IMG/VR virus record: IMGVR_UViG_3300006920_000177 | Location: 1 to 28,282 of that record | Strand: one strand, 5' to 3' | Source: a virus | DNA length: 28,282 nt | In this document: in pieces, positions 5,039 to 25,821 of the stretch | Layout: each line of letters starts with the position of its first letter | Numbering within the stretch: the stretch's first letter is position 1 | Made by a program: the position numbers and the translations under genes | The notes under the pieces: generated by a model | Told to the model about the DNA's origin: nothing | Seen by the model: the letters and a program-made list of their open reading frames with translations, nothing else | Databases searched by the model: none

Positions 5039-5147
5039 TATTTATTATTTTTTTTTCTTCTTTACTCAGTTTTGAGATTAGCTTATCTAGCTTTATCTCA
5101 TAGCTTTTCTTTACTTTATATTTATTTATTATATTCTTTGACTCCAT
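5016..5147 (-). CDS. Small lysine-rich protein before the fibre gene
   Basis: A 43-residue frame from ATG at 5147, beginning 16 bases after the connector gene ends and overlapping the first 23 bases of the fibre gene in another frame. The product is basic and likely helical (MESKNIINKYKVKKSYEIKLDKLISKL and onward). It fills an otherwise empty 125-base gap in a genome that leaves few gaps, and the stop-start overlap is typical of coupled phage genes. No family is recognised. It is plausible but not proven to be translated. Confidence 0.5.
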   Translation of the reverse strand: MESKNIINKYKVKKSYEIKLDKLISKLSKEEKKIINNGRNSNE

Positions 5148-7415: not shown

Positions 7416-7848
7416 AAATTCTTATTATTCTATTATCTTCGTCTTCATCAATTGTAAATTCTCCATCATTAATACTGTAATCATCAGAAACAAGTCCTGC
7501 AATAGCAGTAGCCTTACATCTATGTATAATCGCCTCATTAGTTCCTGAATCAACATCATACCAAGTCCTATCAACAGGATTGAATGTTTGGTCATCAGAA
7601 TACTGTTTTATTTCAATGTTGTAAGTGTTATTTACTTTCAATATAGTAAAGTCACACTCTACTGTTAAGTAATCACCATCAATAGCAATAGCACCTAGTG
7701 TTAAAGCCTCATTATCCAAAGTTTCAGTAGCATTACTACCTTCCTCTGTAATAGTTACGGATGTGAATACAGTAACATTTGTTAGGTCAATGTGTCTAGG
7801 TATAAACTTCAATACATTGGTTACTGAGTTTGTATTTAATATCTTCAT
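7408..7848 (-). CDS. Hypothetical structural protein upstream of portal
   Basis: A 146-residue acidic, beta-rich protein without signal peptide or membrane segment. It begins the operon that contains portal, connector and fibre, and its end overlaps the portal start by 8 bases. The pattern VTVFTSVTITEEGSNATETL, followed by LKVNNTYNIEIKQYS, suggests a small beta-sandwich. I do not recognise a family; a minor head or head-tail joining protein is possible from location. Its only Met is the first one, and that ATG lies just 3 bases after the TATTAT of promoter-like element A, so the mRNA may be leaderless or a non-ATG start may be used. Confidence 0.75.
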   Translation of the reverse strand: MKILNTNSVTNVLKFIPRHIDLTNVTVFTSVTITEEGSNATETLDNEALTLGAIAIDGDYLTVECDFTILKVNNTYNIEIKQYSDDQTFNPVDRTWYDVDSGTNEAIIHRCKATAIAGLVSDDYSINDGEFTIDEDEDNRIIRIYD

Positions 7849-7880
7849 ACTATAATACCAAAAAAGTATGTTTTTGTTTT
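7846..7880 (-). promoter_or_regulatory. Phage-type promoter-like element A (portal/fibre operon)
   Basis: AAAACA at 7875-7880, 17-bp spacer, TATTAT at 7852-7857, and the conserved tail AGTATG that here contains the start codon of the 146-residue protein. It lies just downstream of the terminator at 7891-7918, a terminator-promoter junction dividing two late operons. Confidence 0.75.
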
Positions 7881-7890
7881 GAATATAAAT

Positions 7891-7918
7891 AAAAAAGCCT
7901 CCGATTAGGGAGGCTTTT
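7891..7918 (-). terminator. Rho-independent terminator after the capsid/tail-tube operon
   Basis: GCCTCC at 7897-7902 pairs with GGAGGC at 7909-7914, extended by A4/T4 and closed by a 6-base loop. On the - strand the stem is followed by six T. A-tracts and T-tracts on both sides could make it bidirectional. It ends transcription from element F before element A starts the next operon. Confidence 0.9.
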
Positions 7919-7946
7919 ATAAATAAATATTAATTAATTGTAAGTG

Positions 7947-8477
7947 TTACACACCCGCAGTGATTGTTCCACCTGCATCAACTAAGTTAGTATCAAGGAA
8001 ATTAGCAGGAGTTTTCTCCATACCTGTTAGGGTAAGAGTATATCCACTAAAATCTCCCATTTGTTGTCCTGTTACAACTGTTCCACCTGTAACTTCCATT
8101 CCGTTTAGCAATCCTGCTACAAAGAAAGCACCATTTTGGTCTTCCACAATAACGTGAGGATGTCCGTAAGAAATTAATTTAATCTCTTTGTGGTCTTCTT
8201 TAGATAGTCTAGGCATAGACAATTCAAGAACTTGTTCAAAAGCAGTAGTTCCATTTTCAACAGAAGACTGAATATTTTGAGTGAAAGAACTTGAAAAATG
8301 CACCTCGTATTTGTAAGCAGCAACTGCAACTCCTAGAGTGTCAATTACATCTAGGTCTGTTATATTATAGGCTAGTCCATCAATATCTCCATAGTTAATG
8401 AAATAGATATTTTTGATACCACCTACAGAATCCTTACAGGGTTTTAAACGCCCTAATGATAAATTTTCGCAAGCCAT
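7947..8477 (-). CDS. Tail tube-like (major tail) protein
   Basis: A 176-residue protein, second gene after the major capsid protein counting it as first. The N-terminus MACENLSLGRLKPCKDSVGGIKNIYFINYGD, the middle segment with FEQVLELSMPRLSKEDHKEIKLI, and the later VIVEDQNGAFFVAGLLNGMEVTGG and SGYTLTLTGMEKTPANF together form a pattern I associate with tail tube-like proteins of Bacteroidota siphoviruses: a beta-barrel with strands around the conserved GY-LTLTG-E motif. It would form the inner tube of the tail. Its operon closes at the terminator at 7891-7918. The name rests on motif memory and context, not on a search. Confidence 0.65.
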   Translation of the reverse strand: MACENLSLGRLKPCKDSVGGIKNIYFINYGDIDGLAYNITDLDVIDTLGVAVAAYKYEVHFSSSFTQNIQSSVENGTTAFEQVLELSMPRLSKEDHKEIKLISYGHPHVIVEDQNGAFFVAGLLNGMEVTGGTVVTGQQMGDFSGYTLTLTGMEKTPANFLDTNLVDAGGTITAGV

Positions 8478-8496
8478 AATTTTATAGTATTTTTTT

Positions 8497-8518
8497 TAGA
8501 TTATTAGATTAGATTAGA
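8497..8518. repeat. Short tandem TTAGAT repeats in the leader of the tail-tube gene
   Basis: Four TTAGAT/TTAGAA-type units, one offset by two bases, 20-40 bases upstream of the tail-tube start. On the mRNA strand they read as TCTAAT repeats. No function can be assigned. Confidence 0.5.
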
Positions 8519-8527
8519 AATAGGATT

Positions 8528-8549
8528 TGGAGGGTAATTAAACCCTCCA
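8528..8549 (-). other. Stable hairpin between capsid and tail-tube genes
   Basis: TGGAGGGT at 8528-8535 pairs perfectly with ACCCTCCA at 8542-8549 around a 6-base loop. No T-run follows on the - strand, so a classic terminator is unlikely. It may be an mRNA stabiliser, a processing site or a weak attenuator that sets the ratio of capsid to tail-tube protein. Confidence 0.6.
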
Positions 8550-8571
8550 TCCCCTTATATCAAATCACTTA

Positions 8572-9489
8572 TTATGCAGGTGTGTAAAGTACTACCTCTG
8601 CACCATAAGCATAACCTACTGCTGCAGTATATCGCATAACAAATCTCACATTTCGTGAACCATCTTTGTCAGCCATATCCAATACTTTAACCTCATTTCT
8701 ATCAGAACTTAAACCTGTTCCGAAGAATAAGTTAGAAGACTGAGCAGCTACCATATAGCTAGAAGGCATACCTGAAGCCATAAAGATGTTTACACCTTCA
8801 AATTGTAACTGAGAAAATCCTTGATTAGAACCTTCATTTCTGTAACCATCTCCACCACCTTGTAGTGCTAAAGAAGAAACATACGCTCTCCAAACATTAG
8901 GAGCAACATATAATTTTAAATCCTCTTTACCATAGATAGCCTCAGGGATAAGGTTTATAACCTTTCTCATTTCAGCTTGGATAGTTCCTGAAGCAGCAGC
9001 AATACCTGCTTGGTCAATTACAGTCGCATCAGCAGTAAATAATGTGATTAATCCATCAAATTCACCTTCGTTTCCGTCAGCACCATTCCAAATGATAGAC
9101 TCATTTGCAGTAGCAACTTCAGCTACAGTTTTACCTATAATGAAAGAAGCTAAATCAGGAGGTAAATTATCGTGAGCCGATAATCCCATAGAAATTGCAT
9201 CCCAATCATCTTGGAAATCTTGCTTACACAAAGTGTAGTTCACTTGAAACTCCTTAGGAGTAAGTGTATTTTCATCAACAGTGATGGTAGCAGTAGGCGT
9301 AAAATCACAAGTTCCATCTTTGATAAGGTCACTCATCGCAACTCTTTTCAATACTTGTTTGAACTTGATATTAGGCTTAACTGTTATTCCACCATTACGA
9401 ATAGTAGTTGGTGATAACAAAGCAGCAGACAAATAAGGCATTGCCTTTTCCCCCGCATAGCTAGTTGTAATATTAGTTGTTGTTGGCAT
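8572..9489 (-). CDS. Major capsid protein
   Basis: A 305-residue protein directly downstream of the scaffold-like gene, with an A-rich leader (AACAAAAAAACAATAAAAA) before the ATG, as expected for a highly translated Bacteroidota phage gene. Features that fit an HK97-fold major capsid protein are an early flexible arm, a helical region around QDFQDDWDAISMGLSAHDNLPPDLASFIIGKTVAEVATANESIIWNG (a spine-helix-like stretch), then KLYVAPNVWRAYVSSLALQ, and a C-terminal segment with VKVLDMADKDGSRNVRFVMRYTAAVGYAYGAEVVLY, typical of the P- and A-domain strands. The size is right for a capsid subunit without a large delta domain, consistent with separate scaffold and protease genes next door. No enzyme motif is present. 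Confidence 0.85.
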   Translation of the reverse strand: MPTTTNITTSYAGEKAMPYLSAALLSPTTIRNGGITVKPNIKFKQVLKRVAMSDLIKDGTCDFTPTATITVDENTLTPKEFQVNYTLCKQDFQDDWDAISMGLSAHDNLPPDLASFIIGKTVAEVATANESIIWNGADGNEGEFDGLITLFTADATVIDQAGIAAASGTIQAEMRKVINLIPEAIYGKEDLKLYVAPNVWRAYVSSLALQGGGDGYRNEGSNQGFSQLQFEGVNIFMASGMPSSYMVAAQSSNLFFGTGLSSDRNEVKVLDMADKDGSRNVRFVMRYTAAVGYAYGAEVVLYTPA

Positions 9490-9506
9490 TTTTTATTGTT
9501 TTTTTG

Positions 9507-10034
9507 TTAATTAATTGAATTAAATAATGATTTGAATACCACATCCTCTGTGGTTTGAGTTCGGTTTTGAGCGTAAAGAAATGTTTGTTTCTTTTCTACC
9601 ATACCTTCAGGGTCGTGTACTAAATCATCTGTAGTTTCATCTACCTCACTTAGTTCAACTGACTCCTCAACTACTTCTTCTGTTACAGTTTCTTCAGATA
9701 GTTCTGCAGGCACTTCTTGAGTTGTTGAAGGTGAAATGCTTTCTAACACTTTCGTGTACATCTCTTTAATTTCAGCTATAGCAGAATCAAACTCAGCTTT
9801 AGAAACACTTGCAACAGGTGCAACTACTTCTGCAGGAGCGTCAACTTCGGGAGTGTCTTCTAATACTACTTCCTCTGAAGAGACTTCTTCTAATACAACT
9901 TCTTCTTCAACTACTTCATTAGGTGAAACTACCACTTCTTCATTAGAATCTGTTACTGTACTTTCCTCAACAGGTGTACCAACCGATTTGGCTAGTTCCA
10001 CTATTGCATCGAAAAGTTCCTTTGGTTTTCTCAT
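9507..10034 (-). CDS. Acidic scaffold-like protein
   Basis: A 175-residue protein dominated by Glu, Val and Ser, with many EEVV-type repeats in residues 25-75 and 110-145 and a short helical stretch around SKAEFDSAIAEIKEMYTKVLESI (about residues 83-105). The low-complexity acidic composition, the central coiled-coil-like helix and the location between the capsid protease and the major capsid protein match phage scaffolding proteins, which guide capsid assembly and are then removed by the protease. A C-terminal segment (TFLYAQNRTQTTEDVVFKSLFNSIN) could be the capsid-binding end. The scaffold call is by composition and context. Element F lies 27 bases upstream, so this gene opens the capsid operon. 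Confidence 0.65.
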   Translation of the reverse strand: MRKPKELFDAIVELAKSVGTPVEESTVTDSNEEVVVSPNEVVEEEVVLEEVSSEEVVLEDTPEVDAPAEVVAPVASVSKAEFDSAIAEIKEMYTKVLESISPSTTQEVPAELSEETVTEEVVEESVELSEVDETTDDLVHDPEGMVEKKQTFLYAQNRTQTTEDVVFKSLFNSIN

Positions 10035-10060
10035 AGTTTTAGTTGTTAATTTTATTCTTA

Positions 10061-10095
10061 TTATTAATAATACTAGATAACGAATCTTTTGTCTT
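10061..10095 (-). promoter_or_regulatory. Phage-type promoter-like element F (scaffold/capsid operon)
   Basis: AAGACA at 10090-10095 (one mismatch to AAAACA), 17-bp spacer, TATTAT at 10067-10072. The hexamer ends 32 bases before the scaffold-like gene. It would supply the strong transcription needed for the capsid gene. Confidence 0.65.
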
Positions 10096-10102
10096 ATTTT
10101 CG

Positions 10103-10321
10103 TTAACTTCTATTCACATTTTTTGTTCTAGGTTCTCTACTATTTGATTTAGCACTTACGCTATTGTCACCATCTACTGAACCTATTCCTTGAGATTGTA
10201 ACTCACCATCACAACATTCTCTTGAATAACTACCATCCTTACATAAACAAGCAGTCTTATTCTTTTTAGGACTAGAATTGTGCTTATTAGTATCGTACTT
10301 TCCTTTTCTTTTATTTGCCAT
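10103..10321 (-). CDS. Small Cys-containing basic protein
   Basis: A 72-residue basic, Ser/Lys/Asn-rich protein with a conserved-looking core ACLCKDGSYSRECCDGELQSQGIG (residues 24-47), where Cys25, Cys27, Cys36 and Cys37 form a possible metal site. I have seen this CxC-DGxYS-CC-G-QGIG pattern next to structural genes in Bacteroidota phages, but know no proven function. It starts 2 bases after the protease gene ends and is last in its transcription unit, just before element F. A minor structural or assembly role is a guess. Confidence 0.7.
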   Translation of the reverse strand: MANKRKGKYDTNKHNSSPKKNKTACLCKDGSYSRECCDGELQSQGIGSVDGDNSVSAKSNSREPRTKNVNRS

Positions 10322-10323
10322 AA

Positions 10324-10914
10324 TTATTTATTTAAACTGTTTTTATATTCATCTATTAATGTATTAATCTTTTCTAATGCAGACTCTTCTTCAGCATTTA
10401 CAATACTATCTTTAAATACCCCTTCAATAGAGAATCCTAAGTATTCACCATCTTTAATCTTTTTCCAAACATCATCATTCTCCACTCTAAATGCTACTAC
10501 CCAACTTCCTTTAGGTGCATCTAGATTATAAATGTTGCTTTTATCATTAGTAGGGTCTTCTACTATCCAAGATTCAGTTAAATAAACATCTCCTACCACA
10601 TCTTTATGGTCAACTGTAGTATTATGTACTTTAAGTGTTTTAAGGTACTTTTCAGCAGCTTTACGGACTGTTTCTTCACTGAAGGTTATGTTGTATTCAT
10701 ATCCTGCTTTAACTCGTCTAATAAGCTTATTTGGGATAAGAGCGAGCCCTACAACGATTCTCTTGTCATTATCCACTGCTTTCATTTCGATTTTCTGTTC
10801 ATTTAAGTGAACAAAATCTCTTTCAATTGCAGGTCTGTTTACGAAACTAATGGCATTAATACCACTATTCATACCATCGTCAATTAGTAATTCGATTGTT
10901 TCTATTAATTCCAT
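10324..10914 (-). CDS. Capsid maturation protease, XkdF-type (S78_2-like)
   Basis: A 196-residue protein. Recognisable XkdF features: VVGLALIPNKLIRR (residues 54-67), the YNITFSEETVRKAAEKYL helix (74-91), a His-containing VHNTTVDHKD (96-105), the LTESWIVED stretch with Ser115 (112-120), PKGSWVVAFRVENDDVWKKIKDGEYLGFSIEG (134-165), and a helical tail. His103 and Ser115 are the likely catalytic pair of this serine-type protease, which cleaves scaffold and capsid parts during head maturation. The neighbours support this: scaffold-like and major capsid genes follow. The start overlaps a 38-codon upstream frame by 10 bases. Family call is confident; the catalytic residues are inferred from pattern. 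Confidence 0.88.
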   Translation of the reverse strand: MELIETIELLIDDGMNSGINAISFVNRPAIERDFVHLNEQKIEMKAVDNDKRIVVGLALIPNKLIRRVKAGYEYNITFSEETVRKAAEKYLKTLKVHNTTVDHKDVVGDVYLTESWIVEDPTNDKSNIYNLDAPKGSWVVAFRVENDDVWKKIKDGEYLGFSIEGVFKDSIVNAEEESALEKINTLIDEYKNSLNK

Positions 10915-11021
10915 AGTTTGTTTATTATTCTTTTTATAAATGATTCTTTTTTTATAGGTAACTTATTAATGGCTTTTTCATCAGCCATCATTATCTCTTG
11001 TGGTGTTCTATGTTTTTTCAT
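10905..11021 (-). CDS. Small basic protein overlapping the protease start
   Basis: A 38-residue frame from ATG at 11021, four bases after the appendage gene ends, overlapping the protease start by 10 bases. The product MKKHRTPQEIMMADEKAINK and onward is basic and probably helical. The tight fit between two genes and the stop-start overlap suggest a real coupled gene. Family unknown. Confidence 0.55.
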   Translation of the reverse strand: MKKHRTPQEIMMADEKAINKLPIKKESFIKRIINKLWN

Positions 11022-11025
11022 AATA

Positions 11026-12405
11026 TTATCTTGCATCTATTTCCCAAGTAGAATCTAATTCAAGAGTACAATTTCCTGTTCCATCTAAATTTCTCACCTT
11101 AAAATATGTTATATCTCCATTTAGTATTCTATCGTGATGATTACCTGTAAAGTAAGCAACATCTCTACCACCTTGTGAGTTATTTATAACTCTTGTTTGT
11201 TGGTGAATAATCGTTTCTACTGCATCTCTAAATCTAATTAATTCTATAGAGTATTCGATATTTTGTACTCCTTCTAATACAAAATCCCAACTAACTGTAT
11301 ACTCAACAGGATTTGTTCCATTAAACTTAAGTTGTGCATTTGCAGGTGAAGAAAAATGTTGTAAGTCTTTAGCAGTAAATGTTCCTGCTAATACCTCAGA
11401 TACATTCTGAGTATTAATAGTTGTCTCCACTTCTGCAGCTAAAGCCAATTCTCCTCCAACAAAAGTATTGAATAACCCTTGATTGTTAGCAAACTCACTT
11501 GATAAGTCACTTTCACTAATATTAGGTACTATATTTGCATCTGTAGGGTCAAATACTCCATCTCTTGAAATTATACAACCTCTCAATTGAAGGGTTGAAG
11601 GGTTAGGAAAGTTTAAAGGCTGAAAGTCTAATAACGCTGCTGAAGCAGGCAAATCGCAATTTATGTCTGACAAAAATCTACTATTCATCTGAAACAAAAG
11701 TCCTTCTTTAAATAAAGGTTCTGTCATTCCTGCACTTAAACTTCTTACTATTGATGTTGTAATTCTATATCCACCTCTCCATAATCCGTGAAGCGTTAAT
11801 GAAGGAGAACCACCAAATCTACCTGTACCTGTCTCTAATCCCTGTCTATAATCATAAATATCTCCTAAACTTGTACAGTCAATATAATTTATTCTTGTAA
11901 ACTCAAATGCGTTAAATCCTGTAGCATCATAAAGTTCGTAAACCTTAGACCCTGTTCCACTAACAGTAATAAAAAATTCCTGACCAAGTAAATTCCCTGA
12001 ACCTATTGGTATGGACTCTGATATGAACATAGTATAATTATTTTCTGAGGATATTAGTCCACTTATATCAAAGCTATATCCTCTTATAGTCATTCCGTTA
12101 ACAGGAACAGTTATTTGAATAGTACCTAAATCTATTACGCCATCTAAAAAATATTCTTTAGTGGAATCAATAACTCCACCTAGAGTAGTTGCTACATTTG
12201 CTTGAGTAACAATTATCCTTCCATCTAAATCAGTAGGCTCTACTGCTCCTTCTCCAATCCATTGACTTCCATTCCAATATTCATTATCTCCTGTAGATAA
12301 GTTGTGAATAACCTCACCTTTCTCAGGGTTGAGGTTATTTCTTTCAGTAGTTGTTATCGCATCGGGTCGAACTGTGATAAAAGACCCTTTTCTTGTTCTT
12401 GACAT
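11026..12405 (-). CDS. Tail appendage / receptor-binding-like protein
   Basis: A 459-residue beta-rich protein. The N-terminus has a fibre-attachment style PDAITTTERNNLNPEKGEVIHNLSTGDNEYWNGSQW (residues 14-50), a motif pattern widespread in appendage proteins. The middle (about 65-300) is a series of short strands with turns (GTIQITVPVNGMTIRGYSFDISGLIS, GGYRITTSIVRSLSAG) compatible with a parallel beta-helix or stacked sheets. The C-terminal about 130 residues (LQHFSSPANAQLKFNGTNPVEYTVSWDFVLEGVQN and onward to TWEIDAR) look like a jelly-roll/TNF-like tip as in phage receptor-binding proteins. It is first in its unit, 21 bases after element G. Which receptor it meets cannot be told. Confidence 0.7.
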   Translation of the reverse strand: MSRTRKGSFITVRPDAITTTERNNLNPEKGEVIHNLSTGDNEYWNGSQWIGEGAVEPTDLDGRIIVTQANVATTLGGVIDSTKEYFLDGVIDLGTIQITVPVNGMTIRGYSFDISGLISSENNYTMFISESIPIGSGNLLGQEFFITVSGTGSKVYELYDATGFNAFEFTRINYIDCTSLGDIYDYRQGLETGTGRFGGSPSLTLHGLWRGGYRITTSIVRSLSAGMTEPLFKEGLLFQMNSRFLSDINCDLPASAALLDFQPLNFPNPSTLQLRGCIISRDGVFDPTDANIVPNISESDLSSEFANNQGLFNTFVGGELALAAEVETTINTQNVSEVLAGTFTAKDLQHFSSPANAQLKFNGTNPVEYTVSWDFVLEGVQNIEYSIELIRFRDAVETIIHQQTRVINNSQGGRDVAYFTGNHHDRILNGDITYFKVRNLDGTGNCTLELDSTWEIDAR

Positions 12406-12420
12406 TATATTTATTGCTTT

Positions 12421-12455
12421 ATATTATTAATACTCCGTTTATATCAAATTGTTTT
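12421..12455 (-). promoter_or_regulatory. Phage-type promoter-like element G (appendage/protease unit)
   Basis: AAAACA at 12450-12455, 17-bp spacer, TATTAA at 12427-12432 (one mismatch to TATTAT). The element touches the last two bases of the tape measure gene, and its hexamer ends 21 bases before the appendage start. Confidence 0.6.
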
Positions 12456-14910
12456 ATATTCCACTACTATTAATAGCATTAGCTTTCAGTTGTGCTGCAG
12501 TTTCTATATCATCATAAACTACATAAGCTTGAGTAGGATTGTTAACCTGATTAGCAATAGAATCGGCTAATTGATTAGATTCACTATTCCCCACTATATT
12601 AAAGTTTGGCGTAAAAGCTGCTGCTCCTCCACCTGAACCTCCACCTGAACTTCCTCCTGCACTACTAGCACTTCCGCCTGAGCCTTTAAGGGTAGTTGCT
12701 AAAATGCCTGCAATAGATATACCTGCACCTATGTTATTCTTAGTAATTCTAGCTGCACCTGCAGCTTGTTCAGTAATACTTGCTGCCTTAAAACCTGCTG
12801 CTGCTGCTGCTCCTGCAAATGGACTGATAGCAAATGCTTGTGCGGTTGCTGCTGCATAAGAAGAACCTATTGCTGCCATATTAGCCTTAATTTCATTATT
12901 AGCTGATATAGTATTTATAACTATACCTGCTACTGCTGAACCTTTTTCCAATATTAATGCTGCTAATGCAATTGCTTCATTTTCTTTACCAATAGCTTTA
13001 AATACATTTGATAATCCACCTATCCAACCTACATATTCTAATTGAATTTCTTTCTTAGCATTTATCTTATCCTGTTCTAATTGAATTTCTTCAGCCATTC
13101 TATTTTGGTCGAACATTCTTTGTTGGTCAGCTAATTCCTGAGCAATAGACATTTTATCCTCACCTGCTAGTCTTAGCTTCTCAGATAATTCAACTTGTCT
13201 ATTAGCAAAATCAGCATCTTCAGCATCCCATACTTTCCTAGTTAATTCCTCAATCTGAGCCATTCGCATATTAACAGTATCCTCATTTAGCATACCAATA
13301 TCCAAATTGCTTTCAGCTACATCAACATCAGTGCCTAGTTCTCTAGATAATTGTTGTAATCTAATATCCTCTAATAGATTTGCAGTCTGTTTAGCTTGTA
13401 ATACTTTTTGAGCATCTACTGCTACTTGATATTCAAGTTCAGCTTTAGTAACCTCTTCAGCAAATATAGCTTCAGCTTCAGCTTGCTTTTTAGCATCCTT
13501 ATTTTTCTTCTTAAAGTTTTCTAATCTAAGTCTCTCTTTCTCAATGAAATTAGTCTTAACAAGTTCTAATCCTTGTCTCTCATAATCCTGACTTCTAGCT
13601 AATCTTTCTACATCATCAATATCATCTAAATCAGCAGCATCCTTTCTAAGTTTAAGAATAGCCTTTGACATATCAAGTAATTTCTTCTTGAAATCTCTTA
13701 ATGTTTTAGCGCCTTTATCTTTCTTATCCTTACCAAATAATGTTAAAGCTAATGCTCCATCATCTTCAGTTAACATAGCCATATATTTAGCAACTACATC
13801 CCTACTGCTTTCTAGCTTATCATCTAAATTATTCATAGCAATTTTCACACCTTGTGCTGAGGCATAACCTGCACCTGTAATATTTGCTATAATACCTAGT
13901 CCAACTGTCTCTACAGTACTTAATTGGTCTTTCAACGCCTTACCTTCTTCTCTTATTTGAAAAGTCAATTCCTCTTGAATAACCTCAGCAATTGCTTTAG
14001 CCTTTGCATTTCTAAGTAAGGATTCAGTATATAAATCTAATGCTTCCTGAGACTCAGTAGTTAATCTTCCATTTTCTTCAATCTTTAAATTAAGGTCTTC
14101 ATATTCCTCATTAGCTAGTTTAACGATTTTAGTTAGTGTCTCAGCAGACATATTCCAAGTATTCATAATTTTATCTAAGATGTACATTTCTGTAGCAGCC
14201 TCAGTAAATGAATCTGTTAAATCTTCTACTTCCTTCTTAGCTTTCTTTGCACCACCTCCAAAATAATCAAATGCTGCTATTATTGCTTGCATTGCTAATA
14301 GCAAGCCTAGAGGTCCTGCAAGAGCCTTCCACATCTGCTTAAGCCCTATAGTTACTGCACTTAGCGAGGTACGAAATGTTATAGCCTTACCTGAAGCCTT
14401 TAAGCTTTCATTACCAACTGAGATTAATTGAGTTGATAATTGAGATATGTTGTTTGCCATACCTCTAATACCATAAGGTGCATCCGAAACTACCCTACCA
14501 AATTCTATAGCTGAAGCAGTAGCTTGTCCTGAAGAACCACTAACACCATTAAACTGCTTACTTAAGTTCTGTATCTGAATTTGCTTTTTTGCATAACCTT
14601 GACTACTCATATCCATTACAGAAGCCTCTTCTCTAAGCTTAGCTATCTGTTTGTTAATTGCAGCAGTACTATTTGCGTGTGCAGTAGTTGACCTTTGAAC
14701 TTGAGCAGCATAAGATGCAGTAGTACTAGCTAACTTACGTTCAGCAGCCTCTAACTGCTGAACTTTAACTTTACTTTCTGTACGCCTCATATCTAAATCG
14801 ACTACCTCACCCTTTAATTTTTGGATTTCTGTAGTTAACCTATTCAAGTTGGCTACTGCCTCATCAGTAAGAAAATTTAAATCTATATTTATTCTATTCT
14901 CTTGAGTCAT
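12454..14910 (-). CDS. Tail tape measure protein
   Basis: An 818-residue protein that sets tail length. It starts with long coiled-coil-prone stretches (residues 1-115, including EIQKLKGEVVDLDMRRTESKVKVQQLEAAERKLAS), then EFGRVVSDAPYGIRGMANNISQLSTQLISVG (about 137-167), a pattern I know from tape measures of Bacteroidota phages. Hydrophobic segments lie near 192-215 (ALAGPLGLLLAMQAIIAAFDYFGGG) and 640-720, as in tape measures that reach the cell membrane during DNA ejection. A Gly/Ser-rich linker is at about 745-770. By the usual rule of about 1.5 angstroms per residue, the tail would be roughly 120 nm long. The ATG overlaps the upstream stop by one base (TAATG). Confidence 0.9.
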   Translation of the reverse strand: MTQENRINIDLNFLTDEAVANLNRLTTEIQKLKGEVVDLDMRRTESKVKVQQLEAAERKLASTTASYAAQVQRSTTAHANSTAAINKQIAKLREEASVMDMSSQGYAKKQIQIQNLSKQFNGVSGSSGQATASAIEFGRVVSDAPYGIRGMANNISQLSTQLISVGNESLKASGKAITFRTSLSAVTIGLKQMWKALAGPLGLLLAMQAIIAAFDYFGGGAKKAKKEVEDLTDSFTEAATEMYILDKIMNTWNMSAETLTKIVKLANEEYEDLNLKIEENGRLTTESQEALDLYTESLLRNAKAKAIAEVIQEELTFQIREEGKALKDQLSTVETVGLGIIANITGAGYASAQGVKIAMNNLDDKLESSRDVVAKYMAMLTEDDGALALTLFGKDKKDKGAKTLRDFKKKLLDMSKAILKLRKDAADLDDIDDVERLARSQDYERQGLELVKTNFIEKERLRLENFKKKNKDAKKQAEAEAIFAEEVTKAELEYQVAVDAQKVLQAKQTANLLEDIRLQQLSRELGTDVDVAESNLDIGMLNEDTVNMRMAQIEELTRKVWDAEDADFANRQVELSEKLRLAGEDKMSIAQELADQQRMFDQNRMAEEIQLEQDKINAKKEIQLEYVGWIGGLSNVFKAIGKENEAIALAALILEKGSAVAGIVINTISANNEIKANMAAIGSSYAAATAQAFAISPFAGAAAAAGFKAASITEQAAGAARITKNNIGAGISIAGILATTLKGSGGSASSAGGSSGGGSGGGAAAFTPNFNIVGNSESNQLADSIANQVNNPTQAYVVYDDIETAAQLKANAINSSGI

Positions 14911-15080
14911 TATATTTTAATTAAGTTTCGTTTAACATTTGGTATTAATTCTTTCAAGGATGTTGGTGCTTCATATTTCCCTTTAGCAGTCAATATATCC
15001 TCATCAGAAATGTAGTAATTACTTATCTTTAATAAGTGTAATACATTCTTTAGATAGTTTGCTTTATCGTTATTATCCAT
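14910..15080 (-). CDS. Small protein before the tape measure gene
   Basis: A 56-residue frame from ATG at 15080, two bases after the baseplate gene ends; its TAA shares one base with the tape measure ATG. The product is hydrophilic, with YLKNVLHLLKISNYYISDEDILTAKGKYEAP as its core. Tight spacing on both sides supports translation. It has no recognised family. Confidence 0.65.
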   Translation of the reverse strand: MDNNDKANYLKNVLHLLKISNYYISDEDILTAKGKYEAPTSLKELIPNVKRNLIKI

Positions 15081-15082
15081 AA

Positions 15083-18000
15083 TTATATTTTAGGTGTTAA
15101 TTCTAGTCTTCCTGCTCTTTCACTAATTGATACTCCTGTTCTTTGCTGAGCCACTATTACTGTATTGTCATCAATAGCAAATGTTGGTGCATTCATTTGA
15201 TACAAATCATCTATCTGTTCTGAGTTTAATTTAAGTCCTTTAAAGAACATAATCTCATCCATACATCCTACATACTCATTTCTAGTTATGTGGTCATTTT
15301 TAACTCCAATAGTTGTTCTTTGTGGATGGTGTCTCATCGTAACATACGAAGCATCTTCAATGTAGGTTAAAGTTTCTTCTACATTATCAATATATAGTTT
15401 TATTCCTGCTGCAGTAGCACTACCATCATAAGTCCATACAATATGATACCATTGTCCTAAAACATATCCATTAGATTGATAATCAAATTGAGCAATTAAA
15501 GTACCTCCTGTGGTTGAGTCGTGTAGTTCAATCTGTTCAAATCCATTAGCAGTGTGTTTTATTTCCCACTCCTCATTAGTGTCTGTTCTACTAGCAAAAT
15601 AACTACTATTACCATCTGCAGGAGTAAGTGTTAATTGCTTCCAAGCTGAAATAGAATAAGGTACATCAGCACCATTAGCACTGAAAGTAAAGTCCTCACT
15701 ATTAGCCATCCAAAAATGCTCCTCATTGGCTGCGAAACAAATAGCATTACCATCTACTCCTGAACCAAATGTAGGTGACCTATCTTCTTCACCACCTCCA
15801 CCTTCATCAAATATCCAACCTGTACCCTGATGATTATTACCACTACTATCATCAAAGTTCTGTTCACCTCTATAATAAGCAACTAAACTTACATCATATC
15901 CTTGTGCATTACAATCCCATAGTTCTTCAGTCTCTTCCCATAATCCTGCTGCCTCATTCCATATTAAACAAAGTCCATCATCTTGCCATCTACCTCTATT
16001 TCCCCATTGTGCTTGAATATCAGTTAATCTAAGCAATTTTAACTTAGTTTTAGCTGTTGTAATATCAATATCCATTCCTTCAATATAGAAATCATTTCTA
16101 TTAATAACTATTATGTCATTTAACTTTAAATTCTGAAATATAAGTGGAGGTAAGTATGTTTCTACAATATATCTTCTAGCATAGTTAGAATAAATACTTG
16201 ATATGTATTTATTATGAAACTTTGCAAATATAGAGTTATCATTTAATTCTCTAGTCCACTCATCAAACTCAGTATTAAAGTGAGTTGTATAATCCTCAAA
16301 ATAACTTACATTAGAAGGAGCAAAATACTCGCTAGTAACAACATCATCACCCCAAGTAATTGTCCTACCATCACTTATAGTCTTTTTATTGCAATATAAT
16401 ATTAAAGGTAATTTCCCATCTACAGGCTCAGGTAATGATTTTTTATTATCATTAACAAACCATCCCCATTGTAAGTCTGTTAGAGTTCCATCAGTATTGT
16501 TTAGTCTTTCATACATCATCTTCTCAAACTTAGGCTTAACATCATACTTGCCACCATCGAAAAGTAAATTATTGCTAGTCTCTACTCCCTGAGTAAAGTT
16601 CCCTACATCAAATCTAACGCCTCCAAATTCATCACCTGTTATCTTACCTTGATTTATAGCTAAGAATGTCTTAGGCTTATCGTAAAGGTACTCTACCGAC
16701 GAATAAGGTGCTATTCTTTCTATTGAGGTTCTATCAATATCAACATATTGTGTAGCCTCAAATGTTCTACCTGTTTCTAACCAATGGTCAACTGACATTA
16801 TATTAATTTTATAATTGTCGTTAACATCTACCTCTTCAACTGCTATCAAGTTATAAGTTTTCATCAAATCACTTAAGAAACTTAATATCTTTACCTGAGG
16901 TAATAATAAATGAGGTACTATCTCCGAATATATTAAAGTATCCTCATATTCTGCTTCATCAGATGACGCATCAAAAAAGTTAAAGGTAGGAACAGGATTT
17001 TGTGCAATAAATTGTCTTAATTCTAATGCAGGGGCGAACCCTTCGATAGCACCTGAAGCTAAAACCTTAACCTCTAACCATTGCGTTCCCATTACTGAGT
17101 TTATATCAAAATAAACATTAACCTCAGCAGCTTCTTCATCCCATTCTACTAATTCTGTTACTCTAGTTCCATTAGAGTTAACTACAGTCACACTAGCCTT
17201 AAGAAATCCACTTCCTGTTATGTTTCGTACAGTAAATTTACCTCTATAACTCTTAAATTCTGATGCTAAGTCAGTAAAAGGTCTAAAGTCAGGTGCTGAA
17301 ATGGTTTTAAGTACCATTTCACCCTCTTCAACGCCTGCACCAAAGTCTTTTATTAGTCTAGTCCATACATTTCCATCTTCTCCACCTTCTTGTGATGAGT
17401 TAGAATAGGTTATATAACCCTTTTTATTGTGTAACCAAACGTATAATTCGTCTAATGTTGAAGGGTCTTCTGCTCCGAATAACCATTCCTTATTAAACAC
17501 AATTTGTGGGTAATCCTCTTCAATCGCATCAAATATAGCTGAAAGCTTGATTGCAGGCTTTAAATCAGTATAAGTTAGCCTATCAGGACTCGTTACTGCA
17601 GGTAAACCTGTTAAAGGTGCTAATTCTCTGAATCCACCATCACTATCTGCATACATAAAGCCTCTAGTATGAGATATAAGTGGTACTTTAAACATTCCAT
17701 TGCCTGCATTAGGCACTAAAGTAACCCCTGTTTCACCTGTAGAAGGAGGTAATTTAGCTACATCAAAGCTAGTAGACAGTCCTGTTTGCATATTAGCGTA
17801 GTTATACGGAAATGAATACTTACCTAGAGAAACTAAAGAACCTAGCTTATGCTCACCTAAAATGTCTTTTAATGATGATAATTCACCATAAAACTGTACA
17901 TTATAGCTAACAGGCATATTTTTCTCTAAATTAACACTATTTAGCTTAATATATCCCTTTTTATAGTCTATTCCATTAAGTTTTATTAATGCTGAGTGCT

Positions 18001-18256
18001 TTCTTCTAGAATCATACCCATTTAAAACATTAAAATTACCCCACCTCTTAAAAATTCTATTGTTTGTTGGTGAAGCAGGTAACTTGAATTGGTTAGTGTA
18101 CGCAGTAAAAACCTTACCAACATCTTTTGCATCCTTTACTGTGTCTTTTATAGAGATTTTAACATTCTCATCTAAGTCAGCTTGCATCCAATTGTCGATA
18201 ATGTCACCATCATCATTTAAGGTACTAGAGTTTATATATAAATTAGGTCTAATCAT
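15083..18256 (-). CDS. Tail/baseplate protein with C-terminal LamG domain
   Basis: A 1057-residue protein. The first about 780 residues look like a baseplate or tail-tip protein of Bacteroidota siphoviruses: the start MIRPNLYINSSTLNDDGDIIDNW is followed by KDVGKVFTAYTNQFKLPASPTNNRIFKRWGNFNV and a repeat-poor beta-rich body ending in NDIIVINRNDFYIEGMDIDITTAKTKLKLLRL. Residues about 789-1020 form a concanavalin-like LamG domain: LVAYYRGEQNFDDSSGNNHQG at its start, PYSISAWKQLTL in the middle, QWYHIVWTYDGSATAAGIKLYIDNVEE, and the closing GCMDEIMFFKGLKLNSEQI. LamG domains bind carbohydrates, so this tip probably helps recognise surface glycans. It begins one base after the preceding gene. Confidence 0.82.
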   Translation of the reverse strand: MIRPNLYINSSTLNDDGDIIDNWMQADLDENVKISIKDTVKDAKDVGKVFTAYTNQFKLPASPTNNRIFKRWGNFNVLNGYDSRRKHSALIKLNGIDYKKGYIKLNSVNLEKNMPVSYNVQFYGELSSLKDILGEHKLGSLVSLGKYSFPYNYANMQTGLSTSFDVAKLPPSTGETGVTLVPNAGNGMFKVPLISHTRGFMYADSDGGFRELAPLTGLPAVTSPDRLTYTDLKPAIKLSAIFDAIEEDYPQIVFNKEWLFGAEDPSTLDELYVWLHNKKGYITYSNSSQEGGEDGNVWTRLIKDFGAGVEEGEMVLKTISAPDFRPFTDLASEFKSYRGKFTVRNITGSGFLKASVTVVNSNGTRVTELVEWDEEAAEVNVYFDINSVMGTQWLEVKVLASGAIEGFAPALELRQFIAQNPVPTFNFFDASSDEAEYEDTLIYSEIVPHLLLPQVKILSFLSDLMKTYNLIAVEEVDVNDNYKINIMSVDHWLETGRTFEATQYVDIDRTSIERIAPYSSVEYLYDKPKTFLAINQGKITGDEFGGVRFDVGNFTQGVETSNNLLFDGGKYDVKPKFEKMMYERLNNTDGTLTDLQWGWFVNDNKKSLPEPVDGKLPLILYCNKKTISDGRTITWGDDVVTSEYFAPSNVSYFEDYTTHFNTEFDEWTRELNDNSIFAKFHNKYISSIYSNYARRYIVETYLPPLIFQNLKLNDIIVINRNDFYIEGMDIDITTAKTKLKLLRLTDIQAQWGNRGRWQDDGLCLIWNEAAGLWEETEELWDCNAQGYDVSLVAYYRGEQNFDDSSGNNHQGTGWIFDEGGGGEEDRSPTFGSGVDGNAICFAANEEHFWMANSEDFTFSANGADVPYSISAWKQLTLTPADGNSSYFASRTDTNEEWEIKHTANGFEQIELHDSTTGGTLIAQFDYQSNGYVLGQWYHIVWTYDGSATAAGIKLYIDNVEETLTYIEDASYVTMRHHPQRTTIGVKNDHITRNEYVGCMDEIMFFKGLKLNSEQIDDLYQMNAPTFAIDDNTVIVAQQRTGVSISERAGRLELTPKI

Positions 18257-18257
18257 T

Positions 18258-19442
18258 TTATCTTACTGTATTTATCCAATCATTTGCTGAGGTGAACTCA
18301 AAAGTATAAGAAATCATCTTATCGGACTTAATAGTCTTTATTTTATAATCTTTGCTTGTTAATTTACAAGGTACATTCCAACTTGATTGTGTTTTTGGCA
18401 ACCATCCAATACCAAGTGCATCATTACTACATCTTACCCATACTTGCTCTGACATCATCATCTCCAAGAATGTATCATTCTCAGTTTCATCTACCCATCC
18501 TGTATTAATGGTGAATTTAATAGTGCCATTTTTATTCATTGTTACTTTTTGATGCCTTGTGGCTGAATAAGACCCATTGTCAAGTAAATTTCTAGTAAAC
18601 TCACTACTATTTGTGCTTACTGCTACAGAATATCTACCTGCGAAATGTTGTTCTTGCACACATCCAAACTTATTAACAAAATACACTTTATTATACCCAT
18701 ATTTTGTACAATCTAGGTAGTTAATATCAACAGTTTCATCAGGATAAGGAATTGGAGATTGCTCAAAGTGTAATAATATTCTATCTGCTACATTAGATAG
18801 GTGTGATGAACTGATATACACTACTGCATCAGCAGTATTTGTAGAAGGTGTTAATCCTGATACTGTATGAAAAGTTGTATAAGGTGTATTAGGAGTGTCT
18901 GACTTAGCTACATTCCAATTTCTAGTCTGCAATTCATAACCTATTAACTTATCTTGTCTTACAGGTACTCTAATTGATATATCAGGGTACGCATTAACAA
19001 TAGGACTTGATAACATTACTTCCTGATAGGTAATGTTTTGAAAGTTATTACCTTGATGAAAAGTGCCATAACCATCCAAACCTATAAAATAAGCAGTAGG
19101 GTCTGTGGTTGACTCTTCAGTTGTTAATACCCAAGTCAAGTCAAATGAAATCCAAACTGCACTTGACTCTGCAGCTTCACTTCCTGTACTAATTGTTACC
19201 TCAACAAAGTCTCTAGCAAACTCAGCTATATCTACTGAAGCCTTACCATCAAAAGCCTTGCTTCTTAATGTAACATCAGGATTAGCAGGTTCAGCCGAAA
19301 CTTCACCTATCCATACTCTTAGGTCTACTAAGATATAGTCTAGATTAGCGTCTTCGTATTCTACCCAAAATGGTGAACGCAAAAGTATTTCTTCAGTTGG
19401 TAACCCTGTTGCAGGGTCTATTGGTGCTTCGTATGCTGCCAT
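18258..19442 (-). CDS. Minor tail protein, family not named
   Basis: A 394-residue, beta-rich protein without signal peptide or membrane segment. The segment YGYNKVYFVNKFGCVQEQHFAGRYSV (about residues 250-275) is a pattern I have met in tail-associated proteins of Bacteroidota phages (a VYxxNKFG turn). The C-terminus (KLTSKDYKIKTIKSDKMISYTFEFTSANDWINTVR) resembles distal-tail beta domains. It is followed by the LamG baseplate protein with a one-base gap, and both are in the operon driven by element C, between the tail completion genes and the tape measure. Distal tail or adaptor function is inferred. Confidence 0.65.
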   Translation of the reverse strand: MAAYEAPIDPATGLPTEEILLRSPFWVEYEDANLDYILVDLRVWIGEVSAEPANPDVTLRSKAFDGKASVDIAEFARDFVEVTISTGSEAAESSAVWISFDLTWVLTTEESTTDPTAYFIGLDGYGTFHQGNNFQNITYQEVMLSSPIVNAYPDISIRVPVRQDKLIGYELQTRNWNVAKSDTPNTPYTTFHTVSGLTPSTNTADAVVYISSSHLSNVADRILLHFEQSPIPYPDETVDINYLDCTKYGYNKVYFVNKFGCVQEQHFAGRYSVAVSTNSSEFTRNLLDNGSYSATRHQKVTMNKNGTIKFTINTGWVDETENDTFLEMMMSEQVWVRCSNDALGIGWLPKTQSSWNVPCKLTSKDYKIKTIKSDKMISYTFEFTSANDWINTVR

Positions 19443-19444
19443 AA

Positions 19445-19975
19445 TTATATATTTCTTCTTTCTATGTCCCTTACTTTGAGTAATTCAAAGTTTATTGTTG
19501 TCATTACTTCTTTTCCTAATTCTTCCATTAGTTCTCTCTGCAAATCACTTTCACCATCTACATAAGATAGTATATTTGCTCCATTATAGTTCAATCTTTT
19601 AATCGTTCCTTTAGTTCTAATCTTTCTAGCTATTAAATATGCTGATGATTTCATATTCCTATTACTAGACGCTGCAAACATTGTATTCCCTCTTCTTTTA
19701 AAGTTAATAGGTCGGATGTTTCTGTCCCTCATCCATTGCAGTATCTCTACTGAACTAGGTCTAGATTGTCCTGATGATAATCCTTTGTCAAGTAAATCCA
19801 ATGAACCACTACCCCAAATCTCTAAGCCTTTACCACCATCTTTAGTTTTATGGTAAATTGAATCTACAGTTCTACCACTAGCTACAAATTTCTGTACCCT
19901 AAGTTCTCTTTGTAATGTATTTACAATCTTAGAGCCATACTTATCAAATATTTTATCAAAATCTCTGCTATCCAT
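19445..19975 (-). CDS. HK97 gp10-like tail completion protein
   Basis: A 176-residue basic protein. The pattern ASGRTVDSIYHK (about residues 32-43) with a following GLEIWGSGSLDLLDKGLSSG is reminiscent of HK97 gp10-type head-tail joining proteins, which act in tail completion. It starts on the last base of the 162-residue gene and ends two bases before the 394-residue gene, so all three are translated together. Family call is moderate; no enzyme motif is present. Confidence 0.6.
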   Translation of the reverse strand: MDSRDFDKIFDKYGSKIVNTLQRELRVQKFVASGRTVDSIYHKTKDGGKGLEIWGSGSLDLLDKGLSSGQSRPSSVEILQWMRDRNIRPINFKRRGNTMFAASSNRNMKSSAYLIARKIRTKGTIKRLNYNGANILSYVDGESDLQRELMEELGKEVMTTINFELLKVRDIERRNI

Positions 19976-20463
19976 TACTCAGGAATTCCATCATCAATTA
20001 CTTCACATCCACTAATATCATTAGGAACTTCAATTACTATTTCAGCCTCCCATCCATAAAGCAGGTTCTCATAATCTCCATAAACCATTTTAGCTACAGG
20101 AGTATTTTTAAGTACATATTGTCTTTCAGCTAAATATCCTCTATTGCCTCTGACAGACTCTATAAGTCTATTAATAACTGATGCTTGTGTATTTAATACA
20201 TCCTGAAGGTTTGTTGCTCCCTTGAATGAGTTATCATAATCCTTGCTTTCATCAACTACGTCAGCAACTAATACTCTTATCTTAAATTCGATAGTAGTTC
20301 CATTGAATCGCATATCCTCTAACATAAAGTGTGCTAAAGGAAATAAGGTTGTCTTATTAAGATTGACCTCATCAAATTCACCAAACTTAACAGTATTGGT
20401 ATTTATTTCATTCAAATTGAAATGTTGTTCAATAGAATCTAATATGTTATAAACTTGTTTCAT
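19975..20463 (-). CDS. Tail terminator / completion-like protein
   Basis: A 162-residue protein starting two bases after the stop of the frameshifted chaperone product. The helix at the N-terminus (VYNILDSIEQHFNLNEINTN), the central EFKIRVLVADVVDESKDYDN and the C-terminal YENLLYGWEAEIVIEVPND resemble small alpha/beta tail terminator proteins, which cap the tail tube. The similarity is of fold-type pattern only. Location between chaperone and gp10-like gene supports a tail completion role. Confidence 0.55.
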   Translation of the reverse strand: MKQVYNILDSIEQHFNLNEINTNTVKFGEFDEVNLNKTTLFPLAHFMLEDMRFNGTTIEFKIRVLVADVVDESKDYDNSFKGATNLQDVLNTQASVINRLIESVRGNRGYLAERQYVLKNTPVAKMVYGDYENLLYGWEAEIVIEVPNDISGCEVIDDGIPE

Positions 20464-20465
20464 AA

Positions 20466-21238
20466 TTATTTAAACTTTCCTTTTATTGCTTGTCTGTCAG
20501 CCTTTATTTTTTCTTTCTCAAATTGCAACCAAGTCATTGCTTCGTGAACCGATAATTTAGTTGTCTCAGATATTCTGAGCGCTTGACCTCCTGCGAGAGA
20601 ATAGAGTTGCTGATACCATCCATATCTTTCAGCAAAGTTGCTACCTCCTCCGAGTGTACTGCTTCCTTCATCAATATCTTCTGCGAATAACTCACTGTAA
20701 GTTTCGCCAACTTCATCCCTAAACGATAAAAAAAAACCTTCGCTCCTAAAGCAATCCCTAAAGGCATTTCCTTCATAATTTCTGAAAACTCTTCTGTTCC
20801 CTGATATTCTGCTATCCTATAATGAGGTTTACCTCTAAAACTAGGGTGGATAGGTCTGTATAAAACTGCCATAGCTTTATGCATCTCATCTAAGTCATCA
20901 AAGTATGTATTAAGGTCAATATACTCACCTAAAGATAACTTATCTAGATTAGGCACTAACCCGAATTCAACTACTTCACCATTCTTGTCAGTCATATTAA
21001 ACCTATTAACTAAAGGAGTCTTTTCACTAAACACTTTAGCTAACTCACCTAGTATCTCATCAAAGATTGTAATAGGCATCTTACTAATAGTATTGTAATC
21101 TAATTTACAAACTATCTCCAATAACTTAATATCTAAAAAGTTATTCTCTACATCAGGATTGGCTTCAGCTATCTTCATAAACTTCTGATAATCCTTTAAT
21201 TCTACTCCGTTAATGTTAATTGGTAATTCTAAATGCAT
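20466..21238 (-). CDS. Tail assembly chaperone, -1 frameshift product (gpGT-like)
   Basis: The first 170 codons are shared with the 234-residue product; after the T9 run at 20728-20736 a -1 slip enters a second frame that stays open to the TAA at 20466-20468, giving 257 residues. The new 87-residue tail reads LSFRDEVGETYSELFAEDI, then GWYQQLYSLAGGQALRISETTKLSVHEAMTWLQFEKEKIKADR. The GWY-LYSLAGG and LSVHEAMTWLQFEKEK parts are the pattern of the second domain of tail assembly chaperones, and this frame has no start codon before it apart from a late ATG, so it must be reached by frameshifting. In lambda the same arrangement makes gpG and gpGT, which bind the tape measure protein and recruit tube subunits. 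The arrangement and motifs are seen directly; efficiency is unknown. Confidence 0.8.
20534..21238 (-). CDS. Tail assembly chaperone, unshifted product (gpG-like)
   Basis: A 234-residue protein, first gene of the tail operon behind element C. Its body (LGEYIDLNTYFDDLDEMHKAMAVLYRPI, then KPHYRIAEYQGT and MPLGIALGAKVFFYRLGMKLAKLT) matches the small chaperone of Bacteroidota siphoviruses that coats the tape measure before tube assembly. At codons 168-170 (GTT TTT TTT) it runs through the slippery site; without slipping it continues 64 more residues in the 0 frame. The last part of this product overlaps the -1 frame domain and may have little function of its own. Confidence 0.8.
   Translation of the reverse strand: MHLELPININGVELKDYQKFMKIAEANPDVENNFLDIKLLEIVCKLDYNTISKMPITIFDEILGELAKVFSEKTPLVNRFNMTDKNGEVVEFGLVPNLDKLSLGEYIDLNTYFDDLDEMHKAMAVLYRPIHPSFRGKPHYRIAEYQGTEEFSEIMKEMPLGIALGAKVFFYRLGMKLAKLTVSYSQKILMKEAVHSEEVATLLKDMDGISNSILSQEVKRSEYLRQLNYRFTKQ
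20725..20737 (-). promoter_or_regulatory. Programmed -1 ribosomal frameshift site
   Basis: On the mRNA the sequence is G followed by nine T and then ATC. In the 0 frame codons are GTT TTT TTT TAT, giving a T TTT TTT heptamer of the canonical X XXY YYZ type. A slip of one base back changes the next codon to TTA and opens the 87-codon chaperone domain. No strong downstream stem was evident by eye. Confidence 0.75.
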
Positions 21239-24551: not shown

Positions 24552-24588
24552 AAAAAAAAATCCCCACTCCAATTAAGGAATGAGGATT
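24552..24588 (-). terminator. Rho-independent terminator after the terminase operon
   Basis: On the - strand AATCCTCATTCC and GGAGTGGGGATT form a 12-bp stem with two G-T pairs and a 6-base loop, followed by seven or more T. It lies 22 bases after the terminase large subunit stop. Confidence 0.9.
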
Positions 24589-24609: not shown

Positions 24610-25821
24610 TTACCTGATGGTATATTTACCTGAAGACCTATTGACTATCAATTGCATTGCTCCATATCTTATTGCATCTAAATAGTGATTGTACTTATCT
24701 ATTGGCACAGAACCTTTGTCCTTCCATACATAGTGATTGAGTTCCCTTATAATTCCGTGAGACTTAGGGTCTATAATCATAGTGTAATCTTGTAGCAGGG
24801 CAATCCCTGAGAGGATTGACCCTTTATTCTGCTTAGCAGGAATCATATTGACCCCATATTCTTTTATTTCAGATATAAGTCTAGGCTCGTGATTATCAGC
24901 AACTATAAGACCTCCCTTAGAATATCTTCTGTTCATAATAGCTATTTCTGAGGTAGTTAAGCCTGCCTTACCATAGCATTCCTTCACATAAATTTCCTTC
25001 TGTAACTCATCCACAGAAATCTCCACCAATGTAGTTAAGTCTGTACTGAACCCAAAATCCTGACCAAAACAGGTTTTAGCTAACCCAACATAGTGACCTT
25101 TCTTCCAATTGGAATAGATAGTTCCACTCATTTTTTCTAGCCATCCACCTAGCATTTGATGCTCATACTTTGAAGGATTATTAGCCTTCATATCAGCAAT
25201 AGCTTGTAGGAATGAATCAGGTAGGTTCTCTATATTATCTTTATATGTAGTATGTATGTAAGTAGTGTCACCTTTAACACCATTAAAGCCTTCAGGAACT
25301 CCTCTACTTTCAAAGAACCTCTTCCATATCCAATGTTCCTTAGTAGCAGGATTAAGAATAAGTATAACAATGTTCTGAGACTTTTGTGTTCTAACAGAAT
25401 AGTCTATTTTATCAAATACGAATTCATCAAGTAATTCTTCAGCCTCATCTACAACAAATATAGATACACCTGAAAGAGATTTAAGTGCAGCAGTTTGGTT
25501 ACCTGATGCAGTCTTAATACCTTTAAACATTATACTACTACCTGTAGTCTGATTTATTATCTCATCCCTAGTGACTCTAAAATCATCACCTGCATCCATA
25601 ACATCAATCTTTTCAACAAACTCAGGTATAATTGATGAATGTGCTGAAGCCATTGTATATCTAGTAAACAGAACTTTATTGTTAGGCTCATAAGTTTTAC
25701 CGTTTAGAAATAATGTAACTCCATAACTCTTACCTGAGCCTCGACCTCCTGTTATGATATAATATCTTGTATTGCCTTTGAATAAAGGGATGTACTTTGG
25801 ACTTAATTTAATCTCACTCAT
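24610..25821 (-). CDS. terL: Terminase large subunit
   Basis: A 403-residue packaging motor and nuclease. The ATPase domain has Walker A GGRGSGKS (residues 25-32), Walker B IFVVDEAEE (121-129) with Asp125 and Glu126, and the coupling motif LILNPAT (154-160). The RNase H-like nuclease domain has Asp255 (GQDFGFSTD), Asp309 in VADNHEP, and Asp382 in YLDAIRYG as the likely metal ligands. The layout is that of the Terminase_3/PBSX-XtmB group. The protein docks on the portal, drives DNA into the capsid, and cuts the concatemer. Its start overlaps the end of the small subunit gene by 8 bases; expression is from element B, ended by the terminator at 24552-24588. Confidence 0.95.
   Translation of the reverse strand: MSEIKLSPKYIPLFKGNTRYYIITGGRGSGKSYGVTLFLNGKTYEPNNKVLFTRYTMASAHSSIIPEFVEKIDVMDAGDDFRVTRDEIINQTTGSSIMFKGIKTASGNQTAALKSLSGVSIFVVDEAEELLDEFVFDKIDYSVRTQKSQNIVILILNPATKEHWIWKRFFESRGVPEGFNGVKGDTTYIHTTYKDNIENLPDSFLQAIADMKANNPSKYEHQMLGGWLEKMSGTIYSNWKKGHYVGLAKTCFGQDFGFSTDLTTLVEISVDELQKEIYVKECYGKAGLTTSEIAIMNRRYSKGGLIVADNHEPRLISEIKEYGVNMIPAKQNKGSILSGIALLQDYTMIIDPKSHGIIRELNHYVWKDKGSVPIDKYNHYLDAIRYGAMQLIVNRSSGKYTIR

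Follow-up and report, generated by a model that had tools for sequence, protein, structure and literature searches.

A conserved T-run joins a putative tail-assembly gene of Bacteroidota phages to a startless domain in the −1 frame

The window, i.e., the whole stretch of 28,282 nucleotides of viral DNA analysed here, contains a gene in which a run of nine T residues links the annotated reading frame to a second domain in the −1 frame that has no start codon of its own. Judged by its sequence and by that of its relatives, this is a real, conserved recoding site together with a genuinely missed half of the protein. The site, its conservation, the constraint on both frames and the startless state of the −1 frame can be read directly from the genomes. 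On balance, we favour a programmed −1 recoding site, decoded by ribosomal slippage, in a tail-assembly gene of Bacteroidota phages; slippage of RNA polymerase on the same run is a strong rival.

Results

Reading frames and predicted products

The minus-strand ORF at 21238-20534 has 234 codons and carries T9 at 20728-20736, where the 0 frame reads GTT TTT TTT TAT, with T_TTT_TTT in frame at 20729-20735. Read in the −1 frame from the slip run, the DNA encodes LSFRDEVGETYSELFAEDIDEGSSTLGGGSNFAERYGWYQQLYSLAGGQALRISETTKLSVHEAMTWLQFEKEKIKADRQAIKGKFK followed by a stop codon (20466-20468), 87 codons in all, and upstream of the ATG within ‘HEAMTW’ this frame has no ATG, GTG or TTG. A −1 slip is predicted to produce a fusion of 257 residues (170+87). 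The 0-frame product extends 64 codons beyond the slip, and the two frames overlap by ~195 nt; the first-pass annotation had made no comment on this extension. Both coordinates and frames agree with the first-pass annotation of this DNA, which had described a T TTT TTT heptamer inside a nine-T run, joined to an 87-codon startless frame. The features of the locus are as follows.

20534..21238, minus strand: 0-frame ORF of 234 codons, the shorter, G-like product; relatives have 31-40% identity in alignment A1
20729..21238, minus strand: N-terminal domain of 170 codons, shared by both products; AlphaFold2 confidence and the conserved motif EMHKAMAVLYRPI
20728..20736, minus strand: T9 slip run, GTT TTT TTT TAT; T9 or T10 in 180/180 distinct relatives
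20729..20735, minus strand: in-frame slippery heptamer T_TTT_TTT
20466..20729, minus strand: startless −1 segment, 87 codons and stop, second (T-like) domain; conserved in alignment A2, helical model
20534..20728, minus strand: 0-frame tail, 64 codons and stop, entirely within the overlap with the −1 domain (dual coding)
20719..20721, minus strand: TAG closing the +1 frame two codons past the run; +1 stop within 0-3 codons in 180/180 distinct sites

Among the CDSs of the window, T9 is the sole A or T run of at least eight; three further such runs (5048-5056, 8490-8497 and 24552-24560) are intergenic. Of random genes with 234 codons and the same codon usage, about 0.15% have a −1 frame open for at least 64 codons. 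The combination of T9 with an open −1 frame is, by this measure, more than chance.

Conservation of the slip site

Relatives were collected by scanning IMG/VR with the 0-frame protein (80 loci, about 31-45% identity) and by scans with the −1 domain (a further 80 loci, retained out of 556 confirmed matches), with the homologue from phage P12024L (63 loci) and with a remote −1 domain (13 loci). Genome contigs of GTDB added four loci, from MAGs of Bacteroidetes, Winogradskyella and Flavobacterium. All site counts refer to a de-duplicated set of 180, with contigs ending before the site left out.

T_TTT_TTT, a valid slippery heptamer of the X_XXY_YYZ type, is in frame at the junction in every one of the 180 distinct sites. 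The run is T9 in 160/180 and T10 in 20/180, never shorter or longer, and its register, xTT TTT TTT Tyy, stays constant across relatives, from close ones to those with about 30% protein identity. The two Phe codons in the run are always TTT, whereas TTC accounts for 19% of the upstream Phe codons (211/1095). Past the run, the −1 frame begins with FFL.F(R/S/K/N)... and leads into a conserved GWY...LA.GD domain (WGWY...LAqGD... in the alignment). The four bacterial genome contigs also have the T-run site, and the 13 loci from the scan with the remote −1 domain, which lie outside the set of 180, have T9 in all cases except one (L242). In all relatives whose site is intact, the run and the overlap are retained and the −1 frame is open, so neither of the two refuting conditions named in the first-pass annotation applies. 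The claim of a −1 frameshift made in the first-pass annotation stands as far as a conserved T-run linking the gene to a startless −1 domain is concerned; for its translational route, transcriptional slippage on U9-10 fits as well.

Some variation around the site was seen. A T10 sub-lineage (L127, L131, L132, L137, L139, L142 and L163) has one extra Phe/Leu codon after FF; where this codon is TTC, a change to TTT would be silent in both frames, and the run looks as though it were being kept from lengthening. One locus (L079:5001-5608) encodes the same gene minus about 45 codons, including the whole slip site and the end of the N-terminal domain; it reflects either a deletion in nature or chimeric assembly and was left out of the site count.

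Dual coding in the overlap

In relatives, the 0 frame mostly continues for 50-65 codons past the slip (64 in the window), the exceptions being a few with about 26, P12024 and its near kin with 16-25, and one group with 79-84. Four-fold synonymous change, computed over codon pairs between relatives, which are not phylogenetically independent, was 0.443 for the 0 frame before the slip; the −1 frame gave 0.078 in the first 22 codons, 0.195 in the remaining overlap and 0.432 past the 0-frame stop. Position-wise synonymous rates agree with constraint in the overlap. The 0 frame is open for as long as observed in 123/123 distinct sequences; about 12 of the 123 are expected when the first 22 codons are fixed and the remainder is recoded at random. 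The low synonymous change in the overlap and the 123 open frames together argue that the 0-frame tail is itself selected. Both frames are, on these comparisons, under protein-level constraint, and selection on the 0-frame tail appears strongest in its first ~20 residues (LGNELLKSTLTYLEE-like) and weaker beyond.

AlphaFold2 modelled the N-terminal domain with pLDDT mostly of 80-94 (residues 1-130 and 150-170), and the 0-frame tail past about residue 190 with low confidence. The −1 domain was predicted as all-helical with moderate confidence (pLDDT 71).

Cultured phages and database entries

A tblastn search with the window protein against cultured phages gave no match; a query nearer the consensus found Nonlabens phages. 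The Nonlabens (Persicivirga) phages P12024L and P12024S, which were sequenced as isolates, have CTT TTT TTT TAT and the −1 domain. P12024L_40 and P12024S_38, each with the following ORF, are true homologues with T9 in the same register, and differ from the window in that the 0-frame stop comes 25 codons past the slip, as against 64. The first-pass annotation had expected gene callers to miss the fusion, and this is what the databases hold: in GenBank, the 0-frame protein and the second frame, taken from an internal ATG only, are entered for both phages as separate hypothetical proteins, with no frameshift, and PHROGs splits the pieces, with the 0-frame product in phrog_32199 and the internal-ATG fragment of the second frame in phrog_38404, both of unknown function.

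A relative with a single reading frame

Two loci (L242:2903-3460 and L243:5001-5558) have a single ORF of 185 codons without a T-run, located directly after the terminase gene and followed by two small genes resembling those after the gene in the window. hhalign identifies the C-terminal half of this ORF as a homologue of the −1 domain (probability 92%, E 6e-7). The N-terminal half is short, unlike that of other relatives, and in L242 it has no detectable similarity to alignment A1. A continuous ORF is what would be expected if the −1 domain works within a larger protein. The post-terminase position and the −1 domain homologue are shared with the window; the run is not, hence there is no shorter product.

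Genomic context and putative function

The order of TerL, the recoded gene and genes for proteins of 162, 394 and 1057 aa is kept in most loci with enough flanking sequence. In the window, the neighbouring features are as follows.

19975..20463, minus strand: following gene, 162 aa, with synteny conserved in relatives; may encode a tail terminator (inferred)
24610..25821, minus strand: terminase large subunit, upstream, syntenic
12454..14910, minus strand: probable tape measure, 818 aa, five genes downstream, from its length and coiled-coil-like composition; its PHROG match has unknown function

The minus-strand region 5676-21238 has an unusual order, in which the recoded gene is followed by small tail/neck genes, two long tail proteins and the probable tape measure, and then by protease, capsid and portal. 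The 1057-residue protein (15083-18256) has a C-terminal part that looks like an inserted LamG/concanavalin-like domain; it matched only phrog_38559, of unknown function.

From architecture and position, by analogy, the gene is probably a tail-assembly chaperone. The hallmark of G/GT-like genes is a second domain without a start that is reached by −1 recoding, in a gene upstream of tail genes; the two-product frameshift organisation and the short second domain with predicted helices seen here correspond to it. The gene does not lie directly between the tube and tape measure genes and follows TerL in relatives; a position between tube and tape measure is usual for tail assembly chaperones, but not required. 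The check proposed in the first-pass annotation was an HMM comparison of the 0-frame and −1 segments with tail assembly chaperone profiles; among Pfam and PHROG profiles bearing this annotation, none matched either half, and these families are very divergent. PDB sequence and fold searches gave no credible match. A structure search of BFVD returned uncharacterised phage proteins and one weak named chaperone, ctCpR1 (Foldseek probability 0.95, E=0.05). Matches to PF06931 (4/35 members, best E 6.5e-4) were treated as due to chance, this being an animal-virus family and implausible here. What had been called a typical chaperone second domain therefore holds up as a conserved −1 domain, while its chaperone identity found no annotated Pfam or PHROG profile and no credible PDB match.

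A recoded two-product assembly gene of another kind, e.g., a head-tail or neck factor, would be compatible with either route of slippage, and we regard it as rather unlikely. It would suit a gene that follows terminase rather than the tube gene, with the tape measure five genes on, and that matches no chaperone profile or solved fold; the G/GT hallmark and the presence of ctCpR1 among the weak structural matches speak against it.

Discussion

Compared with lambda G/GT, the gene in the window shares the two products from one start, the −1 slip through which the rarer product gains a second domain, and the location upstream of tail genes. The slip site is G_GGA_AAG in lambda and T9-10 here. Lambda G stops 6 codons (18 nt) after the T start (10115 to 10133), whereas the 0 frame in the window continues for 64 codons; moreover, unlike lambda G/GT, the gene lies away from the tube and tape measure genes and matches no annotated chaperone profile. 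Fusions of this type go back to lambda, and the recoding is in that sense nothing unusual. What makes it a distinct variant is the homopolymer at the slip and the long stretch coded in two frames, the latter being new relative to lambda, where the 0 frame ends soon after the slip. By analogy of organisation we consider the gene G/GT-like, and its membership in a known chaperone family putative.

The occurrence of a slip, its probable route and rate, and the chaperone role are inferred. In the majority of decoding events T9 would be read in frame 0 to give the 234-residue protein, composed of the N-terminal domain and a helical tail; in a minority, a −1 shift at the run would give the 257-residue fusion, with the same 170 residues followed by the helical domain of 87 residues. 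The most likely route by precedent would be ribosomal slippage on U_UUU_UUU with tandem tRNA-Phe. If the analogy with lambda gpG/gpGT holds, coating of the tape measure would fall to the short protein, and recruitment of tail-tube subunits to the less abundant fusion.

One rival explanation is a sequencing or assembly error in the homopolymer, or decay of the gene, such that the locus would really be a continuous ORF or a pseudogene. Homopolymer runs are error-prone, and the window and its relatives are mostly metagenomic contigs, yet the register is identical at the 180 distinct sites, which come from many samples, as well as in both cultured phages, the 0-frame tail is constrained, and the synonymous pattern demands two frames. 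The relatives, the cultured phages and the two-frame constraint led us to reject this explanation, the probability of which we consider negligible. Translation of the −1 frame on its own, by internal initiation or re-initiation and with no fusion, is very improbable. A possible start precedes the conserved motif in 41/180 sites, and the annotators of P12024L/S began the second frame at an internal ATG, but 139/180 sites have no ATG, GTG or TTG there, and an internal start was rejected for these, i.e., for most relatives. Furthermore, the conserved −1 protein starts exactly at the slip run (FFL.FR), and the remote relative has the domain within one ORF.

Slippage of RNA polymerase on T9-10 would yield mixed mRNAs and the same two products, and we regard it as a serious possibility, if not the favoured one. 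One extra U, or two fewer, would give the fusion, and one U fewer an immediate +1-frame stop. In many bacteria, selection against slippage by the polymerase begins to show at runs of 9-10, and Thermus dnaX and some IS elements are transcriptional slippage genes on A9/T9 (PMC1088944). The window resembles these in having a nine-base homopolymer at the frame junction and one frame closed at once; it differs in that slippage is predicted here and in that the site doubles as an in-frame ribosomal heptamer. An A/T run of at least nine at the junction is expected of a transcriptional slippage gene, and one is present here. Consistent with this route, the run is never below nine nor above ten in the 180 distinct sites, a +1-frame stop follows within 0-3 codons at each of them, and no other A/T run of at least eight occurs within the CDSs of the window; these phages also show depletion of further coding runs (A9 to 0.34, A10 to 0.18 and T8 to 0.25 of expected), and T10 lineages ending in TTC avoid a longer run despite the synonymy of TTT in both frames. 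Polymerase slippage also needs no conserved RNA structure. However, the two extra T's fall at positions where a hydrophobic residue is wanted in both proteins (V/L/I/F before FF; L or F in the −1 frame), and amino-acid constraint alone may therefore fix them. The +1 stop follows from the TTTAGG used by both frames, T9 elsewhere is only mildly depleted, with small numbers (4 seen, 7.8 expected), and ribosomal slippage is the route in the other tail chaperone genes that have been studied.

The ribosomal route has its own difficulties. Seven T's are enough for ribosomal slippage, and the constant presence of 9-10 T, though seven would do, was counted against it. A stimulatory RNA structure or an upstream Shine-Dalgarno-like element is usual, not universal, in −1 recoding genes. 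A search confined to short-range stem-loops found none that was consistent upstream or downstream of the site in 22 diverse relatives; z-scores were scattered from about −2.9 to +1.6, with no shared position. In E. coli, U_UUU_UUU is reported to be much less shift-prone than A_AAA_AAG (PMC5009743). In other genes of these phages (299 kb), in-frame T_TTT_TTT has an observed/expected ratio of 0.73, and the other T7 phases 0.23 and 0.37; the in-frame heptamer is not specially avoided elsewhere, which we counted against the ribosome as sole cause. Polymerase slippage stays a strong rival because the run is always at the classical threshold and no conserved stem-loop was found. To our knowledge, the tail chaperone genes studied so far use ribosomal slippage, and on this precedent, by analogy, we place the ribosomal route slightly ahead. 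A VFFLSFR peptide, suggested in the first-pass annotation, would confirm the fusion but not its route, because insertion of one U yields an identical peptide.

As a separate observation, in-frame T_TTT_TTT is less avoided than the other T7 phases, and A8-A10 and T8 are clearly depleted; this perhaps hints at which kind of slippage matters in the hosts.

With the −1 domain, a conserved assembly protein encoded by hundreds of uncultured phages gains its absent half; catalogues list its parts as unlinked or truncated unknowns. The gene is also a well-supported example of long dual coding in phage morphogenesis. We put forward only tentatively that the whole clade of Bacteroidota phages makes its fused tail-assembly protein via polymerase slippage on T9-10, within ~60 doubly selected codons. 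If the polymerase route is true, ribosomal frameshifting would not be the sole way in which phages set the ratio of two products. The about 180 natural T9/T10 sites form a series for asking how Bacteroidota decode a homopolymer.
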